Below, piece by piece: positions 5 to 28,488 of a stretch of DNA of 33,152 nt; the stretch's first letter is position 1; each line of letters starts with the position of its first letter. The DNA comes from an uncultured bacterium (GTDB lineage: Bacteria > Cyanobacteriota > Vampirovibrionia > Gastranaerophilales > Gastranaerophilaceae): the NCBI GenBank assembly GCA_947073645.1, contig CAMTMK010000020.1:1-33152 (forward strand). The letters run 5' to 3'. A program made the translations under genes and the position numbers. The notes beneath the pieces are model-generated. The model was not told where the DNA came from and did no database searches. It was given only the letters and a program-made list of their open reading frames with translations.

Positions 5-30
5 AATTACCCACCCATTACCCACAGAAA
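5..30. repeat. Left copy of 26-bp direct repeat, putative attL
   Basis: The 26 bases match 13359-13384 at 25 of 26 positions; the only difference is C25 versus T13379. The core reads TTACCCACCCATTACCCA. The right copy lies next to the integrase gene, so the pair is best read as the duplicated attachment site of a roughly 13.35-kb element. Only four bases of flanking DNA are visible on the left, so the junction with the host cannot be checked here. The alternative is a pair of integrase-binding repeats with the true core further out. Confidence 0.65.
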
Positions 31-267
31 TTTTCATTATAATAAGATTTATTATAGTTAAACGAGAGGTCATTCAGATAATCAAGAAGTAACTTTAAAT
101 AATAATTTAATATAAATTTATTATTTAATCATCAAAATTCATCAGATGACTTCCGTGTATTTATCATTTTTTATTTTTTTTTTTTATGTGTTTTATTATT
201 ACAAAATTACAAAATGGTGTAAATGTATCATAAGAAAATATTAACAGGATAACTATAAGCACATTAA

Positions 268-3710: not shown

Positions 3711-4067
3711 ATGACAGAACGCACGACGGCACTGGAAGTATATTTTTACGCAACAAGTTCGGGCAATGAACCTGTTAGAGAATGGTTAAAAAGCCTGCCA
3801 AAAGAAGATATGCGTACAATCGGATTTGATATTAAAACCGTTCAATATGGATATCCAATCGGAATGCCTTTAACTCGCATTTTGCATGGTACTGGCGGAC
3901 TTGAAGAAGTGCGTTGTAATATATCAAATGGGATTGCACGAGTTATCTTCTATGTAGAAGATAATACAATGGTGCTTTTACACGCATTTATCAAGAAAAC
4001 ACAGGAAACTCCTAAAAAAGAATTAGATGTTGCAATAAAAAGATATAAGGACTTATGCAAACGATAG
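3711..4067 (+). CDS. higB: RelE/HigB-type toxin (Gp49-like, DUF891)
   Basis: The 118-aa sequence has the Gp49-like/HigB pattern: an N-terminal strand 'LEVYFYATSSGNEPVREWL', a helix, the central 'YPIGMPLTRILHGTGGLEEVR', then 'RVIFYVEDNTMVLLHAFIKKTQETP' and a C-terminal helix. The family comprises RelE-fold mRNA interferases or their phage relatives, usually neutralised by a HigA-type XRE antitoxin. A matching antitoxin is next door but on the opposite strand, with the two 3' ends overlapping by 15 bp. No Shine-Dalgarno precedes the ATG; the TATAAT at 3699-3704 suggests a leaderless message. Confidence 0.85.
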   Translation: MTERTTALEVYFYATSSGNEPVREWLKSLPKEDMRTIGFDIKTVQYGYPIGMPLTRILHGTGGLEEVRCNISNGIARVIFYVEDNTMVLLHAFIKKTQETPKKELDVAIKRYKDLCKR

Positions 4068-5638: not shown

Positions 5639-6202
5639 CTACAAATCTAAACTCAAATACACATCATCTAATTCATCTTGCGTAATGCCTATGTATCGCA
5701 GGGTTAGACTAGGTGATGAATGATTGAATAGTTTTTGAATGAGTGTTATATCGTAGCCGTTATTATATGCGTGGTAACCAAAAGTCTTTCGGAGAGTATG
5801 AGTACCGATTTTTTCTTTTATACCGACGGATTTCGCAACATTGTTGATAATCTTATATGCTTGTCCACGCAACAAAAAGCCGTTATTCTTTCTTGATATG
5901 AATAACGGCTCATTGTCTTTATAGTTGCGTGTTTTTAAATACTCTTTGATCGCTTGTTTTGTTTTATCTGATAACGGAAAATCTTTGAATTTATTTGTCT
6001 TTTTCTCCCTTAGTCGTATGCGGTCTTTTATTTTTCCGTTTTCAATAACATTTGATACTGTCAATTTTAGTAAATCGCTAATCCTTAAACCTGAATTGAT
6101 TCCAAGAACAAATAAGCAATAATCTCTTAAATTCTGCTGTCTCAAAAGCTTTTTAATTGTTTCTATCTGCTTTAAATCTCTAATCGGTTGTACAAATTCC
6201 AT
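5639..6202 (-). CDS. Short tyrosine recombinase (catalytic domain only)
   Basis: The full catalytic set of a tyrosine recombinase is visible: R40 ('GLRISDLL'), a lysine near 67-68 in the beta-hairpin, H135-x-x-R138 ('HTLRKT'), H161 ('NHSSPS') and nucleophile Y170 ('LRYIGI'). The 187-aa protein has only ~25 residues ahead of the catalytic domain, so it lacks the usual arm-binding and SAM-like core-binding domains. Short enzymes of this type include FimB/FimE-like invertases and element-borne resolvases. The element already has a full-length integrase, so this one may invert or resolve something else. AAAGG lies ahead of the ATG. No clear invertible segment was found around it. Confidence 0.85.
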   Translation of the reverse strand: MEFVQPIRDLKQIETIKKLLRQQNLRDYCLFVLGINSGLRISDLLKLTVSNVIENGKIKDRIRLREKKTNKFKDFPLSDKTKQAIKEYLKTRNYKDNEPLFISRKNNGFLLRGQAYKIINNVAKSVGIKEKIGTHTLRKTFGYHAYNNGYDITLIQKLFNHSSPSLTLRYIGITQDELDDVYLSLDL

Positions 6203-7617: not shown

Positions 7618-8670
7618 ATGTCAGAAGAAACAAAAAAATGTCCATATTGTGGAGCAGATGTTCCATTAGAGGCAAAAAAATGTAGATATTGCGGAGAATG
7701 GTTAGTAACACAGGAAAAAGACAAACCCAAAGCCAGTTTTCACTGTAGTGCAATAATTGAGGGTATTATTGCTATTATTATTGTAATAATGATGTTTACT
7801 ACTTCATATTCAGATTCGTTAATTTTATTTGTAATTATTGCATATATTGTATTAAACTTATATTTTTTGCCAACATTAATTGCAGATAAGAAGAGAACAC
7901 AATACACCGGTGCTATTTTGGCTTTGAATTTACTATTAGGATTAACAGTAATTGTTTGGGTTGGGTGCTTAATTTGGGCTATAGTGTTACCTGATTTGAG
8001 CAAAAATACAACAGAAAATAAAGATAATAAAAAATCCAATTATTTAAATGTTATTGTAGATGATTTTCGTAATAACTTTAAACCTTCACAAAAAGTCAAA
8101 GAAGTCCCAACTGAAATTCAGGGTAGATTTAATTGGGGAGCTTTTTTATTAAACTGGATATGGGGGATTGGGAATAAAAGTTATCAAACTCTTTGGTGTT
8201 TAATCCCATTTGTTGGAATTATATGGGCATTTGTATGCGGATTAAAAGGTAATGAATGGGCATGGCAAAATAAAAAATGGACAAATGTAGAAGAATTTAA
8301 CCGTGTTCAACGGAAATGGACAATAGGCAGCAGTATTGTAATATCAACTTTTTTAATTTTAAGTACAGTTTTACTTATCGTCGCTATGAACGCTAGCCCT
8401 CAAAAGACAGTTAATATCTCCAATAAAACTCAAATCGAACAGATAGAAGATGAAACAAATAAAATTCAAAATGCTGAACCCGAATACTATATTGGTGATG
8501 ACGAAATTGTAGTAAAAACATATACCTACCAAGGAATTGACATTGAATATGATTCTAATAGTACGAGCGTTAGTAAAATTGCACCAGTTGCAAAACAATG
8601 CTATAATGAGGGCAATATAGATTCCGAAAGCCTTAATCAATGTGTTGGGATTAAACTCCATTGGTTCTAA
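7618..8670 (+). CDS. Zinc-ribbon membrane protein with superinfection-immunity-like domain
   Basis: Residues 8-25 form a zinc ribbon (C8-x2-C11 and C22-x2-C25). Two or three membrane helices follow (about 45-120); the second half, with 'FLPTLIAD' and 'LNLLLGLTVIVWVGCLIWAI', matches the pattern of the superinfection-immunity family (Imm_superinfect, the phage T4 Imm type that blocks DNA entry of related phages). A further unit from ~168 has 'RFNWGAFLLNWIWGIGN' and 'IPFVGIIWAFVCGLKGNEWA', a membrane module common in gut bacteria, then one more helix and an exported or cytoplasmic tail. It lies 46 bases downstream of the secreted-protein gene, with a GGAG Shine-Dalgarno, and is followed by a strong terminator, so the two probably form one operon. 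Confidence 0.75.
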   Translation: MSEETKKCPYCGADVPLEAKKCRYCGEWLVTQEKDKPKASFHCSAIIEGIIAIIIVIMMFTTSYSDSLILFVIIAYIVLNLYFLPTLIADKKRTQYTGAILALNLLLGLTVIVWVGCLIWAIVLPDLSKNTTENKDNKKSNYLNVIVDDFRNNFKPSQKVKEVPTEIQGRFNWGAFLLNWIWGIGNKSYQTLWCLIPFVGIIWAFVCGLKGNEWAWQNKKWTNVEEFNRVQRKWTIGSSIVISTFLILSTVLLIVAMNASPQKTVNISNKTQIEQIEDETNKIQNAEPEYYIGDDEIVVKTYTYQGIDIEYDSNSTSVSKIAPVAKQCYNEGNIDSESLNQCVGIKLHWF

Positions 8671-8823: not shown

Positions 8824-8869
8824 AAAATAAAACAAACTCCTTTACATTGAAAGGTTTTTGTTTTATTTT
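8824..8869. terminator. Long AT-rich hairpin, likely bidirectional terminator
   Basis: Two 20-base arms (8824-8843 and 8850-8869) pair at 18 positions around the loop ACATTG. The inner part is CCTTT/AAAGG and the outer part is A-rich on one side and T-rich on the other, so it can work from either strand. It separates the cargo from the replication module. A role in replication (single-strand origin) is an alternative. Confidence 0.55.
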
Positions 8870-8906
8870 AACAACAGGTAGCCACACACAAGGTGTAGTT
8901 AGACCT

Positions 8907-8952
8907 ATTATATAATTCATTTACAAATTCATTATATAATGCATTTATAAAT
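8907..8952. repeat. Two iteron-like direct repeats, candidate replication origin
   Basis: The 22-bp units 8907-8928 and 8931-8952 are identical at 20 positions and start 24 bp apart. Each begins with the palindrome ATTATATAAT. They lie in an AT-rich stretch some 140 bp ahead of the prim-pol/helicase operon, where origins of satellite-type replicons are usually found. No protein binding can be shown from sequence. Confidence 0.5.
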
Positions 8953-8999
8953 ATGTCAAGCTGTCAATTGAAATATTACAAAATGTGAACTAAACTTAT

Positions 9000-9080
9000 G
9001 ACTCTCCTTGTTGTAGCACCTAGCCTTTAATAAATTAAGTTGCTTGTTTTTATAGGCTAGAGTCAGAAAGCAACAAGGAG
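9000..9080 (+). promoter_or_regulatory. Structured leader that can cover the primase Shine-Dalgarno
   Basis: CTCCTTGTTG (9004-9013) is the exact complement of CAACAAGGAG (9071-9080), which contains the Shine-Dalgarno of the primase gene. A competing fold is available: GACTC (9000-9004) with GAGTC (9060-9064), and CTAGCCTTTA (9020-9029) with TATAGGCTAG (9051-9060, 9 of 10 pairs). A third possible pairing is GTTGCTT (9039-9045) with AAGCAAC (9068-9074). Mutually exclusive folds around a ribosome-binding site suggest translational control or control by a small RNA. Confidence 0.55.
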
Positions 9081-9087
9081 AAAAATA

Positions 9088-9978
9088 ATGACAAAGAGTA
9101 ATTTGTTATTGAACTGGCAGAATTATGCCACATTCCCTTGTAAGGGAAATTCAAAACAACCCGCAACTAGAAACGGATTCAAAGATGCTCAATTCGGGCA
9201 AGATGTAGAGGCTATAGTAAATCTTGGCTACAACATGGGTTTGGCTTGCGAAAAGTCCGGGATTGTTGTGATTGATGTTGATTATCACGATGAGAAATCA
9301 ACTGCTATGGACGATTTAAAACAGTTAGAAATAGAACTAGGAGCAAAATTACCTCGCACTTTAACACAATCGACAGCAAGTGGTAATGGCAGACATCTTA
9401 TTTATTCAGCAAAAGGAATTACTAACCCTAGAGGCAAGATAGGACAATTCTGTGATTTAAAATATAGAGGATATATTATGATTGCTCCTTCATCTATCAA
9501 TGGACGTCAGTATAAAATCATTGACGGAATTGATGAAAGTGGTAATTTTATTATTGCTGAATTACCACAAGCTTGGTTAGACTACATCAACAAAGATGTA
9601 CCAACTAATCCAAATAATAAGGCTCAAAAATCTACAGGCTTTTCCAAAGCTCGCAAGACTTATACCAATATTAATGTGGATAAGATGTTCAGCAACTGTG
9701 CGTTCTTGCGTTATTGCAGAGATAATGCCGATTGTCTTTCAGAGCCGGAGTGGTTTAGTATGATTAGCGTTTTAGCTCAAATAGAAGATTCTGATGAGCT
9801 AATACATGAGCTTTCTGAACCGTATCCAACTTATAGCTTTGACGAAACACAGAAAAAGATTGAATATGCACGAGCATTTGGGCTTCCGCAAAGCTGTGCG
9901 TATTTATCAGCTAACTATGCAGAAATCTGCAAAAATTGTACAAGGTTAAATTTTGAAAGAGAGGCAAATAATGACTAA
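9088..9978 (+). CDS. Prim-pol (AEP) primase of the element
   Basis: The N-terminal ~165 residues match the bifunctional primase-polymerase (PF09250-like) fold: the metal-binding D63-x-D65 in 'VVIDVDYH', the 'SGNGRHLIY' segment with H103, and 'GYIMIAPSS' near residue 130. A C-terminal helical region with 'EWFSMISVLAQ' and a cysteine cluster ('SCAYLSANYAEICKNC') resembles primase C-terminal modules seen in phage and satellite replicases. It should make primers for autonomous replication of the excised element. The Shine-Dalgarno AAGGAG at 9075-9080 sits in the inverted repeat described for the leader. The gene overlaps the helicase gene by 8 bp. Confidence 0.88.
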   Translation: MTKSNLLLNWQNYATFPCKGNSKQPATRNGFKDAQFGQDVEAIVNLGYNMGLACEKSGIVVIDVDYHDEKSTAMDDLKQLEIELGAKLPRTLTQSTASGNGRHLIYSAKGITNPRGKIGQFCDLKYRGYIMIAPSSINGRQYKIIDGIDESGNFIIAELPQAWLDYINKDVPTNPNNKAQKSTGFSKARKTYTNINVDKMFSNCAFLRYCRDNADCLSEPEWFSMISVLAQIEDSDELIHELSEPYPTYSFDETQKKIEYARAFGLPQSCAYLSANYAEICKNCTRLNFEREANND

Positions 9979-11899
9979 CGCACCTATGAATATAAACAAC
10001 CCGATTGATATGGGGAAAAAGACGATTGAAGATATTTTCAATCAGAATAAGAAATTATTGAACGCAGTAACATTTATTTCAAAAGCAACAATTAGTTGCA
10101 ACTTTGATGAATGCAACCTGCCAAATCAAAATAAATTTTTATTGCAAAAGTGGAATAAAACATTCTCTGTTGAAAAACAAAAGGGAAAATTGAAAGTGAA
10201 ATTATTAGCTAATTTTGTTGTCAAAGATGTTAGAGAATGCACACTTATACATAACGACAAAAGCAACAAAAAATCTCATAAATACTATGTAATCTCTCTG
10301 AAAAATGATAAAGGGACAATTGAAAGGGATGTAGAGGTTGCAAATAATTCCAAGTCAGATGTGAAGCAGTTTGAGACAACCGTAAATAACCTCTATACTG
10401 GCTTTCAAGTTTGTATGTCAGAAGCTGAATTCAAAACATTTGTTTGTGAATATGTATCGCCAAAGGTTGCAACGACTACTACTATTTACACAAATGCAGG
10501 TAAAATTGATGACACTTCTTTGTTATACGAAAACGCACTTGCTACAACAAACGGTATAAATTGGGCTGATAGTGATGGATATATCAAAACCGGAGAAAAC
10601 TCATATGTAAGACTTGCAGAGGCATCGCATTATTTACCGAAACTTGCAACAAGCGTAAGAACTCCACAAGTTATAGCAAATGAGCTTATGACAAACATTT
10701 TAGAATGTTGGGAAGATAACATTGTTTTACCTCTCATAACACTTGGGCATATGGTTATGGCTATATATTATGAGGAATTCATCAAACGATATGGCTGTCC
10801 GACACTAATTTTATATGGCGAAACAGGAACAGGAAAATCAACTCTTGTAACTGTCGGATTATCTATTTTTGGACTTGCAAGAGAAGCTCTTACCTCGGGT
10901 GGTTCTACAGCCAAAAGCAATGAGTATTTCTGCTCAAAATATAACGGTATGAATGTTTGCATAGATGATGTTAAGGGGGAAACCTTAGCCTCAAGTAACT
11001 TTACGGCTTTAATAAAAGGCATGTATAAAGGCGTTCCTCGTACTAAAATGTTACCTTATGGAAAAGGGGTTGAGTACATCAACACTTGTAGTCCATTAGC
11101 ATATTCAACAAATGAATCTTTACCAGATCTAAAAGAAGTGGTTAACAGAATGAATATTGTTGAAATCTTCGGCAAAGTGTTCAAAGCAGACAAATTTAAC
11201 TATCACGAAGTTGACAAAGATAACAATGCTCGTTTACAAGAATTGTCGTTAATCTTACCTCAATTCTTAAAATATTCAACGGAAGATGTTCTTAAGCTTT
11301 ATGAGGAGGTTTTTGAAATCTTAAAAGCAAATGTCAAAGACACACAAAATCGTGTCATAAATAATATTGCTTATGCTTATACAGGAGCTTTGATGTTGCT
11401 TGCGATTGCAGATATATCATTAGAAGACTTGCAGGTCAAAGTTATAGAATATGCACAAAAACAAATAACTATGTATGAAAGCATACAAACTCCAGTTGAA
11501 AAAGTGTTTGAAAGTATTATTGTTTTAACTAAACTGGGTATTTTCCAAGCTGGCACTCATTTTAGAATTATGGACGTAGCCTATGATGATGCTATTGAGA
11601 CACATCTGCGTTTTCATAAAGATGTAGTTTTAACTGCTATCAATAAATATTATGCACACGATAAGTCTAAACGCATCAATGAAAGTCAATTTCTAAACTA
11701 TGCTAAAAATCACAGTAGATTTCGTGATGATAATTGTAGTGTGCGTTATGATAACGATAAGAGTAAAGTTGTTGGCTCAATGTGTTTCAATATTACTGGA
11801 CTAGATGATTTTGTTAGCATTTCCAAAACTGGTGTAATAATGCCAACATCAGCTAATGAGCTTAGAACAACCCTAAAAAACGAGGGTAATAATATGTAA
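9971..11899 (+). CDS. DUF927-like AAA+ replicative helicase
   Basis: The 642-aa protein has a Walker A motif GETGTGKST at residues 283-291 and an acidic Walker B 'CIDD' at about 330-333, with the general layout of DUF927/superfamily-3-like helicases that accompany prim-pol proteins in phages, satellites and ICEs. The N-terminal ~250 residues are divergent; the C-terminal part is helical. It should unwind the origin together with the primase. I prefer the ATG at 9971 to 9953 because AGAGG (9960-9964) is six bases before it; the start then overlaps the primase stop, implying coupled translation. Confidence 0.85.
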   Translation: MTNAPMNINNPIDMGKKTIEDIFNQNKKLLNAVTFISKATISCNFDECNLPNQNKFLLQKWNKTFSVEKQKGKLKVKLLANFVVKDVRECTLIHNDKSNKKSHKYYVISLKNDKGTIERDVEVANNSKSDVKQFETTVNNLYTGFQVCMSEAEFKTFVCEYVSPKVATTTTIYTNAGKIDDTSLLYENALATTNGINWADSDGYIKTGENSYVRLAEASHYLPKLATSVRTPQVIANELMTNILECWEDNIVLPLITLGHMVMAIYYEEFIKRYGCPTLILYGETGTGKSTLVTVGLSIFGLAREALTSGGSTAKSNEYFCSKYNGMNVCIDDVKGETLASSNFTALIKGMYKGVPRTKMLPYGKGVEYINTCSPLAYSTNESLPDLKEVVNRMNIVEIFGKVFKADKFNYHEVDKDNNARLQELSLILPQFLKYSTEDVLKLYEEVFEILKANVKDTQNRVINNIAYAYTGALMLLAIADISLEDLQVKVIEYAQKQITMYESIQTPVEKVFESIIVLTKLGIFQAGTHFRIMDVAYDDAIETHLRFHKDVVLTAINKYYAHDKSKRINESQFLNYAKNHSRFRDDNCSVRYDNDKSKVVGSMCFNITGLDDFVSISKTGVIMPTSANELRTTLKNEGNNM

Positions 11900-12008: not shown

Positions 12009-12212
12009 ATGACAAATTTTATAACATTCAAAGAATTTTGCGAAGTCTTAAAAGCTAATCCGAACACAGTAAAGACATGGAAAAGACGAGGAGATTTACC
12101 TGCTAAAATCTTTTTCAAAATTGGCGGTACAGTTTATGTTCTAAAAGACAAATTTGAGCAATGGGTAACAGAACAACAAGCCTGGAAAGGTGAATACTAT
12201 GGCGACATATAA
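12009..12212 (+). CDS. AlpA/excisionase-like HTH protein, 67 aa
   Basis: The protein is one winged-HTH of the MerR/excisionase (HTH_17) kind: 'ITFKEFCEVLKANPNTVKTW' is the HTH, 'RRGDLPAKIFFKIGGTVYV' the wing, and 'LKDKFEQWV' the closing helix. Such proteins bend DNA at att sites or act as AlpA-type activators. It overlaps the integrase gene by 14 bp, and AAGGA lies just ahead of its ATG. The pairing xis-int is standard for integrative elements. Confidence 0.85.
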   Translation: MTNFITFKEFCEVLKANPNTVKTWKRRGDLPAKIFFKIGGTVYVLKDKFEQWVTEQQAWKGEYYGDI

Positions 12213-13272
12213 ACAGAAAAACAAATGGTATTACCAATTTATGCTCAATGGAGAAAGGAAGCACGGTCTTTGTACCGGAGCTTCCGATAAAAAAGAAGCT
12301 GACCAGTTTGAAAATGCTATTAAATTCAGATTAGCACAGCAACAGAATGGCGTTATACCTAGAGAAGAAAAGAGTGTACCTTTAAGCAAACTGATAAAAC
12401 TTTACGACAGTTATGCTAAAAATAACAAACGCAGTTACAGCAGGGATGTTTATACATTAAAGATTATAACTAAATTCTTTGGCGAAAACTGTACCGTTCA
12501 ACAGATTACACCTAAGAGAATAGAGGATTTTAAAGAACATCTGCTTAATCAAAGAAAGGTCAAAAATTCTACTATAAATAAGTACATTAGGGTTTTGAGT
12601 AAAATGTTTAATCTTGGTATCGACAATGAAATTTTGAGCAAAAATCCTGTAGCTAAAGTCGTTAAGTTAAAAGAAGATAACCATAAAATCAGATATCTTA
12701 CTAAAGCAGAAGAAAAACGATTATTTTTTGAAGTCGAAAAAGAATATGAAGTTTTAGACAGATACACAAGAAAAAAGAAGATAGTTCAACCTTATTTGTA
12801 TCTAAAACCTATCATAATAACAGCACTTCAAACTGGAATGAGAAAAGGTGAAATATTAAGCCTTGAGTGGGAGAATATCAATTTTGAATATGGCTATATC
12901 GATTTATTAAAAACAAAAACGAACAGACCAAGAAAAATACCATTATCGTCAGGATTAAAGGATATGTTTAAAGGCCTTGAAAGAGAGTCTAAGTATGTTT
13001 TTACTAATCCTAAAACAAATACTGCATATAAAAGCATAACTAAATCTTTCAAAGCAGTTTTGGAAAAGGCTAAGATTAAAGATTTCAGATTTCACGATTT
13101 GAGGCACACAGTTGCAACAAGACTTGTTGAGAAGAACATAGATTTATTTGTTGTTCAAGAAATACTAGGTCATTCAAAAATAACAACTACTCAAAGATAT
13201 GCTCATCCTGTGCCTCAAAGAAAACTTGATGCAGTAGAAATTCTTAATACCTATACCAATCAGCCCTCTTAA
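12199..13272 (+). CDS. int: Tyrosine integrase of the element
   Basis: This 357-aa integrase has an N-terminal arm-binding domain (about residues 1-55, 'KWYYQFMLNGERKHG'), a SAM-like core-binding domain (about 65-165) and a catalytic domain with R215 ('TGMRKGEI'), a lysine in 'KTKTNRPRKIPL', H299-DL-R302, H325 ('LGHSKITTT') and nucleophile Y334 ('RYAHP'). I prefer the ATG at 12199 over the GTG at 12190 because GGAAAGG (12184-12190) fits it. The gene is followed at once by a terminator, three 21-bp-spaced repeats and the right copy of the 26-bp repeat, the usual place for an integrase. Confidence 0.95.
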   Translation: MATYKQKNKWYYQFMLNGERKHGLCTGASDKKEADQFENAIKFRLAQQQNGVIPREEKSVPLSKLIKLYDSYAKNNKRSYSRDVYTLKIITKFFGENCTVQQITPKRIEDFKEHLLNQRKVKNSTINKYIRVLSKMFNLGIDNEILSKNPVAKVVKLKEDNHKIRYLTKAEEKRLFFEVEKEYEVLDRYTRKKKIVQPYLYLKPIIITALQTGMRKGEILSLEWENINFEYGYIDLLKTKTNRPRKIPLSSGLKDMFKGLERESKYVFTNPKTNTAYKSITKSFKAVLEKAKIKDFRFHDLRHTVATRLVEKNIDLFVVQEILGHSKITTTQRYAHPVPQRKLDAVEILNTYTNQPS

Positions 13273-13358: not shown

Positions 13359-13384
13359 AATTACCCACCCATTACCCATAGAAA
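13359..13384. repeat. Right copy of 26-bp direct repeat, putative attR
   Basis: It matches 5-30 at 25 of 26 positions. It lies 87 bp after the integrase stop codon and 41 bp from the 3' end of tRNA-Gly, outside the tRNA itself. This makes the element about 13,354 bp long between equivalent points of the repeats. Confidence 0.65.
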
Positions 13385-13393
13385 ATTAAGCAA

Positions 13394-13425: not shown

Positions 13426-13500
13426 TGGAGCGGGAGACGAGGCTCGAACTCGCGACATCCTCCTTGGCAAGGAGGCATTCTACCACTGAATTACCCCCGC
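13426..13500 (-). tRNA. tRNA-Gly (anticodon GCC)
   Basis: The 75-base minus-strand sequence folds as a cloverleaf: acceptor GCGGGGG with CTCCCGC (one G-T pair), D arm 'TTCAGTGGTAGAA', anticodon stem CCTCC/GGAGG around TTGCCAA (anticodon GCC at 13468-13466), T arm GCGAG/CTCGT around TTCGAGC, discriminator T and encoded CCA. It is intact and not disrupted by the neighbouring element. Confidence 0.97.
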
Positions 13501-13582: not shown

Positions 13583-13816
13583 ACTATAAATTCAGCTCCT
13601 AATGTTGCGGGAAAAGATTATGTTGATTTTATGATAACAAAAAATGGAGTAATGCCTCCGGGAGTTAAAGACGGGTATTATACAAATTCTTTTGAAAAAG
13701 GGTGTTTAGAACTTTTTACTAAGTGTACTGCCTGGATAATTTATAACGATAACATGGATTATCTGCATTGTCCCGAAAAATTGGGCTGTAATAAGGCAAG
13801 TAGTTGTAAGAAATAA
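13583..13816 (+). pseudogene. 5'-truncated prepilin-like gene remnant
   Basis: The open frame from 13583 encodes the C-terminal third of a large prepilin: 'NVAGKDYVDFMITKNGVMPPG', split here after 20 residues, then 'EKGCLELFTKCTAWIIYNDN' and 'MDYLHCPEKLG' with a final 'SSCKK'. It aligns with the end of the intact prepilin at 27733-28488 ('CTAWVIQNKNMDYLHCPDKLG'). The signal, methylation site and hydrophobic helix are absent; a stop codon lies in frame at 13577-13579, and the first ATG (13631) lacks a Shine-Dalgarno. It is either a decayed copy left by a rearrangement next to the tRNA or a silent cassette that could donate sequence to an expressed prepilin. Confidence 0.75.
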
Positions 13817-27732: not shown

Positions 27733-28488
27733 ATGAAAATATTACGTCTTATCGGGGGGGGCAATTCTACAGCCTTCACCTTAGCTGAAGTGTTAATTAC
27801 TTTGGGAGTAGTCGGTGTTGTGTCGGCGTTAACTATACCAACGCTGGTGTCTAATTATAGAGAAAAGGTAATCGTAACAAGGCTGAATGCAGTGTATAAT
27901 CAGCTTCAGCAGGCTACAGCAAGAATGGTTCAAGATGAAAATGGAGGGTTCGATAATATTTGGGGAGAATATCCTATAAAAACTTATTATGAACTATTGC
28001 CGAAATATATTAAGGTTACAGAAGTTAAAAGAACTAAAACTAAAACATGCTGTAAAAATAGAGCAGGAACTATATTGGGTGAAAATTATGGCACCGGTAA
28101 AATGTATACATTACCAAATGGTGCCGAAATTATTCTTTATCCCGGCACAAAAGCAGGTGGTACTTATGTGAAATGTAATATGACGACACAATATAATGGT
28201 ACACTTTATTTCAATGCCTGCGGAGAAATAGTTATTGATGTCGATGGATTTAATAACGGACGTAATATTATAGGTTATGATGTTTTTAAAGTCGCTCTGG
28301 TTAAGGACGGCTTGCTTCCTGTAGGTATGCCGAGAGAAAGTGTATGGACGCATAAGTTTGATGAATGTTTAAAAGATGGCAGCGGGTATCCTTATGGCTG
28401 TACGGCTTGGGTTATTCAAAATAAAAATATGGATTATCTGCACTGCCCTGATAAATTGGGGTGGAATAAACAGTCCTCTTGTAAATAA
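27733..28488 (+). CDS. Type IV prepilin-like protein, Cys-rich
   Basis: A 14-residue basic leader is followed by the methylated-helix motif 'FTLAEVLITLGVVGVVSALT', with E at +5 and a long hydrophobic helix. The residue before the cleavage site is Ala instead of the usual Gly ('STA' before F15), though the rest is canonical. The 251-aa protein is larger than ordinary minor pilins and has several Cys, including CC near 108 and a C-terminal group in 'ECLKDGSGYPYGCTAW' and 'SSCK'. It would be processed by a prepilin peptidase and assembled into a pilus or secretion pseudopilus. The Shine-Dalgarno is AAAGGAGG. The truncated gene at 13583-13816 is a paralogue of its C-terminus. No pilus assembly genes are in the window. 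Confidence 0.9.
   Translation: MKILRLIGGGNSTAFTLAEVLITLGVVGVVSALTIPTLVSNYREKVIVTRLNAVYNQLQQATARMVQDENGGFDNIWGEYPIKTYYELLPKYIKVTEVKRTKTKTCCKNRAGTILGENYGTGKMYTLPNGAEIILYPGTKAGGTYVKCNMTTQYNGTLYFNACGEIVIDVDGFNNGRNIIGYDVFKVALVKDGLLPVGMPRESVWTHKFDECLKDGSGYPYGCTAWVIQNKNMDYLHCPDKLGWNKQSSCK

Follow-up and report, generated by a model that had tools for sequence, protein, structure and literature searches.

How does an integrated genetic element hold its own replication gene in check? The question is raised by the leader of a Prim-Pol (AEP) primase gene in the window analyzed here, a stretch of 33,152 nucleotides that is one whole contig of a genome of 1.7 Mb in 37 contigs. The first 13.4 kb of the window look, from their sequence, like an integrative element integrated in the chromosome, with putative attachment repeats, a tyrosine integrase, the primase gene, and an overlapping downstream gene that encodes a putative helicase (Table 1). 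Domain and phrog profile searches returned no family match for this second gene. Several other features were observed in and beside the element. Directly 5' of the primase leader, positions 7618-8667 (+) encode a protein in which a zinc ribbon is combined with a superinfection-immunity domain (PF14373). An integrase-like ORF of 187 aa at 5639-6202 (-) matched phage integrases in their catalytic part alone and is possibly an integrase remnant alongside the full integrase at 12190. A Gp49-like protein (PF05973; HigB/RelE-type toxin family) is encoded at 3711-4067 (+), where a toxin-antitoxin pair may be present. We also observed a 71-nt repeat with 77% identity between 13724-13794 and 28399-28469, and the copy adjoining the right end of the element is apparently a gene fragment resembling the end of the ORF at 27733-28488.

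Table 1. Features of the window that bear on primase control and on the element, followed by anti-SD/SD pairs in leaders of related primase genes
Feature	Position	Strand	Basis or remark
Putative attL, left direct repeat	5..33	+	29 nt, 93% identity to 13359-13387
Predicted counter-transcribed RNA, ~100 nt	8824..8924	-	Promoter, terminator and fold predictions
Predicted intrinsic terminator of antisense RNA	8824..8869	-	-13.6 kcal/mol hairpin, then T run
Candidate promoter of primase mRNA, TTTACA-17-TATTTT	8841..8869	+	9/12 consensus match; start ~8876 at 5' arm
5' arm, SD mimic (AGGTAGCCACACACAAGGTGTAGTTA), competes with SD for 3' arm	8876..8901	+	Pairs with 8998-9021
Predicted sigma-70 promoter of antisense RNA, TTGACA-17-TATAAT	8931..8959	-	12/12 consensus match
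Alternative candidate mRNA promoter, TTGAAA-17-TAAACT	8968..8996	+	9/12 consensus match; start ~9003, 5' arm left out
3' arm, holds anti-SD CTCCTTGTTG (9004-9013)	8998..9021	+	Pairs with SD and with 8875-8902
Inner hairpin CTAGCCT/AGGCTAG	9020..9060	+	In MFE folds with SD closed and with SD open
Primase Shine-Dalgarno (SD) region CAACAAGGAG	9071..9080	+	Exact complement of 9004-9013
Prim-Pol (AEP) primase, 296 aa	9088..9978	+	PF09250, E 9.2e-19; phrog_1156 DNA primase, E 1.3e-18
Putative helicase, overlaps primase gene	9953..11899	+	GETGTGKS Walker A; ATPase-like
Tyrosine integrase of element	12190..13272	+	PF00589, E 1.2e-33
Putative attR, right direct repeat	13359..13387	+	Between integrase and tRNA
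tRNA	13429-13500	-	
L014 anti-SD/SD			TAAACCTC/GAGGTTTA
L008 anti-SD/SD			AGTCTGT/ACAGACT
L019 anti-SD/SD			CCTTTCTC/GAGAAAGG
L035 anti-SD/SD			TGTCTCC/GGAGACA
L016 anti-SD/SD			TTTCTCC/GGAGAAA

An earlier note on this DNA had pointed to a 10-base sequence in the leader as an exact complement of the region holding the primase SD. We confirmed this anti-SD at the positions claimed, and the two sequences are the sole exact complementary pair of their kind in the window. The fold of 8996-9100 reached -30.2 kcal/mol (z -4.57; none of 200 shuffles equaled it), pairing of the SD region with the upstream leader reached -20.6 kcal/mol, compared with -9.7 on average for shuffled sequences (sd 2.0; 0 of 500 shuffles equal), and the 3' arm alone paired with the SD at -20.3 kcal/mol (0/400 shuffles equal). 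No gene among 186 with an SD in the same genome had SD:leader pairing at z of -5.4 or below, the best value being -5.2. Opening the primase SD would cost about 11-13 kcal/mol, and an RNA starting at 9014 would leave the SD free (0.2 kcal/mol), in agreement with the earlier note; no predicted promoter places the start of the primase mRNA downstream of 9013. These findings indicate that the leader very probably sequesters the primase SD. At gathering score, Rfam 15 matched only the tRNA in the window and no described RNA family in the leader. From 8996 to the start codon, the + strand showed neither an intrinsic terminator nor, at the SD, a terminator-like stem followed by a U tract. Searches for the leader DNA returned no homologue beyond AT-rich noise in 383 genomes of the family and no match in 72,556 plasmids, and the 28-base SD pattern had no exact match in viral contigs.

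What might open such a leader had been proposed as well: the pairing that closes the SD was thought to compete with GACTC/GAGTC plus CTAGCCT/AGGCTAG and with GTTGCTT/AAGCAAC. All of these elements are present (GACTC at 9000-9004, GAGTC at 9060-9064, CTAGCCT at 9020-9026, AGGCTAG at 9054-9060, GTTGCTT at 9039-9045, and AAGCAAC at 9068-9074), but a balanced rivalry with the SD-closed fold was not confirmed. CTAGCCT/AGGCTAG is nested within the SD-closed fold and compatible with it, and we rejected it as a rival. We likewise rejected GACT/AGTC and GTTGCTT/AAGCAAC as switches, as folds forced to contain them reached -14.7 and -17.3 kcal/mol, respectively, versus -29.9 kcal/mol, and are thus weaker than the SD-closed fold by 12-15 kcal/mol. 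Control of the replication gene by RNA folding is itself well supported, both by the folding energies and by the fact that anti-SD leaders recur in related elements with differing sequences; the particular alternative folds named earlier do not form the switch. A better competitor at 8876-8901, along with a promoter and a terminator on the minus strand, lies beyond the coordinates considered at that time and was missed. The earlier mechanism is right in kind, but the parts it names are the wrong ones.

The upstream competitor, here termed the 5' arm, can pair with the same anti-SD that closes the SD. Pairing of 8875-8902 with the anti-SD region reached -21.9 kcal/mol with p 0.004, or p 0.10-0.17 when wider targets were used, and only 0.12% of the 35-nt + strand windows of the 33 kb paired as well with the anti-SD as 8876-8901 did. 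When the SD was held open, the MFE of the long leader used exactly the pairing of 8876-8901 with the 3' arm. Stability favors the SD-closed fold over the SD-open fold by about 10 kcal/mol, so the SD-open state would have to be kinetic and form during transcription.

Between the two arms lies the minus-strand promoter, which is the sole 12/12 sigma-70 site in the window (8959-8931; 400 kb of the same genome contain two such sites) and points away from the primase into a gene-free stretch, with no ORF between it and the convergent upstream gene. The RNA predicted from it has a computed fold with a short 5' tail, a hairpin over 8876-8916, and the terminator hairpin. Action of this RNA in trans on 9000-9095 was considered and rejected; its complementarity to that region is ordinary, with 27% of windows being as good. 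For the primase mRNA, 9/12 promoter sites are common by chance, and one such site lies on each side of the antisense target. In fold computations, an mRNA from 9003 was dominated by the SD-closed fold.

Searches for the primase across one genome family found about 30 relatives, whose leaders do not align with that of the window; a layout common to many of them emerged nonetheless. Many relatives carry a minus-strand intrinsic terminator 100-200 nt 5' of the primase gene, preceded in L004 and L024 by the minus promoter TTGATT-17-TATAAT and in L005 and L025 by TTGAAA-17-TATAAT, with scores of 10-11/12 for these four. The + strand of the terminator hairpin forms a 5' arm that pairs with a downstream 3' arm, which is pyrimidine-rich and often complementary to the SD of its own gene. 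An automatic test that required a minus-strand terminator and 5':3' arm pairing at z <= -3 was passed by 11 of 25 primase leaders (L002, L004, L005, L008, L014, L019, L020, L022, L024, L025, and L043) versus 0 of 186 control genes. Pairing of the 3' arm or leader with the SD had p <= 0.04 in L002, L008, L014, L019, L020, and L035 and was not significant in several relatives (L005, L024, and L025). We excluded L015, in which the layout was seen by eye at p 0.05 and 0.38, from our count, and L017, which has a bidirectional hairpin without arm pairing, was also rejected as a member.

In all, 13 leaders that precede related Prim-Pol operons showed the same layout order, with differing sequences. 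Arm pairing was kept through two-sided changes in 3 of 14 pairs in the six leaders of type B and in 2 of 30 pairs in the three of type A. Both alignments are small and give modest counts; a stronger argument is that each leader, though divergent, preserves its complementarity. Antisense control in the relatives is very likely from these patterns. We also observed a second hairpin between the 3' arm and the SD, GGATAGAG...CTCTA(T) in L019, L020, L022, L024, and L043 and a long one, GAAACTT...AAGTTTC, in L005 and L025, and these latter two leaders may therefore have an extra step. In genomes G320 (L016) and G303 (L015), a small gene (149 and 187 aa, respectively) precedes the primase; the two appeared unrelated by eye, and the leader structure lies ahead of the small gene.

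A covariance model built from the six type B leaders and run over 315 genomes at E < 1e-4 recovered its own six members and two new leaders, L035 (E 1.4e-6) and L016 (E 6.8e-5). The L035 match lies 191 nt upstream of the primase match, and its antisense strand reads TTGATT-17-TATAAT, then a hairpin, then eight T. The L016 match lies 585 nt upstream of the primase, which is the second gene of its operon, and the leader precedes the first gene. Both new leaders have 5':3' arm pairing that none of 1,000 shuffles equaled and a 7- to 8-base SD complement. Weaker matches were L087, L088, and L092.

This layout guided a renewed inspection of 8960-8815 in the window. The window is not a typical member of the group: it resembles these leaders in having the three switch parts in the same order, with longer spacing (a span of about 200 nt versus 101-111 nt in the type A and type B relatives). 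When its terminator hairpin was taken as the 5' arm, the automatic layout test gave z -0.4 against the threshold of -3; the 5' arm of the window is the hairpin adjoining the terminator, whereas in the relatives it is the terminator hairpin itself. Antisense control of the primase in the window appears slightly better than an even prospect.

On balance, we favor, with some reserve, a reading in which the primase leader is a translational attenuator under a counter-transcribed antisense RNA. In this model, the 5' arm would emerge first in transcription and hold the anti-SD, leaving the SD free. Alternatively, the anti-SD in the 3' arm would take the SD and shut Prim-Pol translation. The minus RNA would start at about 8924 from its perfect promoter, end at about 8824, and be an exact complement of the 5' arm. 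Its amount would be proportional to copy number, so that it would be abundant when there are many copies or a resident related element; by occupying the 5' arm, it would promote the SD-closed fold and primase synthesis would fall. The output of control is best read as translational. We infer that both RNAs are produced, that transcription of the mRNA begins 5' of the upstream arm, that control runs in the direction described, and that it serves copy number, incompatibility, or immunity.

Our results also bear on other explanations. The leader might sequester the SD on its own, with an mRNA from about 9003 (the 8968-8996 promoter) whose hairpin keeps primase translation low until it is opened by a protein, translation coupling, an RNase, or a helicase, and with the minus RNA a separate divergent small RNA. 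The 9/12 promoter and the dominance of the SD-closed fold from 9003 fit this account. It leaves unexplained the complementarity of 8876-8901 and the layout of 13 relatives, and the lack of notable complementarity between the minus RNA and 9000-9095 also counts against it; we regard it as rather unlikely, if the most serious competitor. Chance complementarity without function is harder still to uphold. The window leader has no homologue in the 383 family genomes, so its own conservation cannot test this explanation; however, z values of -4.6 and -5.4 were absent from the 186 control genes, and the arrangement recurs in relatives with differing sequences, making chance highly improbable.

Primases of other replicons recognize hairpin sites, such as the ssi sites of RSF1010, and the inverted repeats here adjoin a primase gene. 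They could accordingly be DNA features, a replication origin hairpin or a primase recognition site, with no part in RNA control. This explanation does not say why 3' arms of differing sequence match the SD of their own gene or why promoters and U-tract terminators lie on the minus strand between the arms, and we consider it improbable. An immunity of the P4 type, in which a processed sense RNA terminates primase transcription, would suit an integrated element with RNA control ahead of its replication genes. The candidate small RNA would instead be an antisense transcript with a separate promoter and terminator, and the + strand from 8996 to the start codon lacks a terminator-like site, leaving this possibility very slight.

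Relatives that keep the gene without the complementary arms had been named as evidence against control by folding. Such relatives exist (L007 and L040), but they are not the rule among near relatives, most of which, such as L002, L008, and L014, retain the layout in other sequences. The nearest relative, L007, has a primase that is 79% identical and a different leader, without the antisense layout; L040, with a primase that is 54% identical, also lacks the layout. The two have in common another upstream region, AAGTGTACATAGGTATTTGAGG...AAAGGAG (L007:2714-3340 and L040:1100-1490), and in L007 a divergent ORF upstream of the primase encodes a CxxC zinc-ribbon motif, which suggests a protein-controlled alternative cassette. 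That this region differs despite a related primase indicates that the control region changes faster than the gene, as would be expected if it set compatibility between elements.

Antisense RNAs that set plasmid copy number are known, but how integrated elements with primases restrain their replication and exclude relatives is largely an open question. Our findings point to a plasmid-like antisense logic in front of primase genes that integrative elements carry in a little-studied gut lineage, in leaders whose sequences diverge yet retain both competing pairings. More tentatively, a single gut bacterial family could harbor widespread and fast-diverging antisense-RNA translational switches that control the AEP primases of its integrated elements, with the antisense loop as a specificity tag for superinfection immunity or incompatibility and with whole cassettes exchanged. 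The model predicts small RNAs that could be found in existing transcriptomes, as well as element-specific immunity. Our partial coverage of the literature turned up no paper that describes an integrated element controlling a Prim-Pol by antisense RNA.

Known systems offer several comparisons. The earlier note drew a parallel with satellite P4, which is apt in its logic, the control by RNA of replication genes that an integrated element carries, and fails in mechanism. The P4 CI RNA (seqA/seqC) is processed from a same-strand transcript and causes transcription termination (PMC4825925), in contrast to the candidate RNA of the window, which would be read from the minus strand under a promoter of its own and act through SD sequestration. 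ArrA of Bacillus subtilis is an antisense RNA in the dnaA 5' UTR that lowers expression (PMC12112137). It likewise overlaps the leader of a replication gene, but its target is the chromosomal dnaA, and the abstract describes no attenuator with an SD mimic and an anti-SD. In the pT181 RNAI/repC system, the counter-transcribed leader RNA measures 87 nt, and the ribosome-binding site lies within the structure that is induced (PMC5703833). The window would share both traits. pT181 acts mainly by transcription termination, whereas we found no terminator-like stem and U tract at the SD on the + strand of the window.

The closest known mechanism is that of the staphylococcal RepA_N plasmid pSK41, in which SD sequestration is proposed to be induced by an antisense RNA. 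This RNA, RNAI, is about 83 nt long and has a 5' tail followed by two stem-loops. It is complementary to a part of the rep leader lying roughly 100 nt before the initiation region, and its binding is proposed to bring about a stem-loop in which the ribosome-binding site is sequestered (PMC5703833). The RNA predicted for the window is about 100 nt in length, with two hairpins and a 5' tail, and an SD-sequestering stem is predicted as well. An antisense promoter and terminator opposite the leader and an alternative SD-sequestering structure are both found in the sequence, and the pairing of the free antisense target with the anti-SD is strong in relatives and moderate in the window. The window differs from pSK41 in its target, which is a Prim-Pol primase and not RepA_N, in belonging to an integrated element of a different bacterial lineage, in showing no sequence relation, and in placing the antisense promoter between the two arms of the leader. 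On the preferred reading, this would be a known plasmid mechanism in a new form, ahead of the primase of an integrated element.
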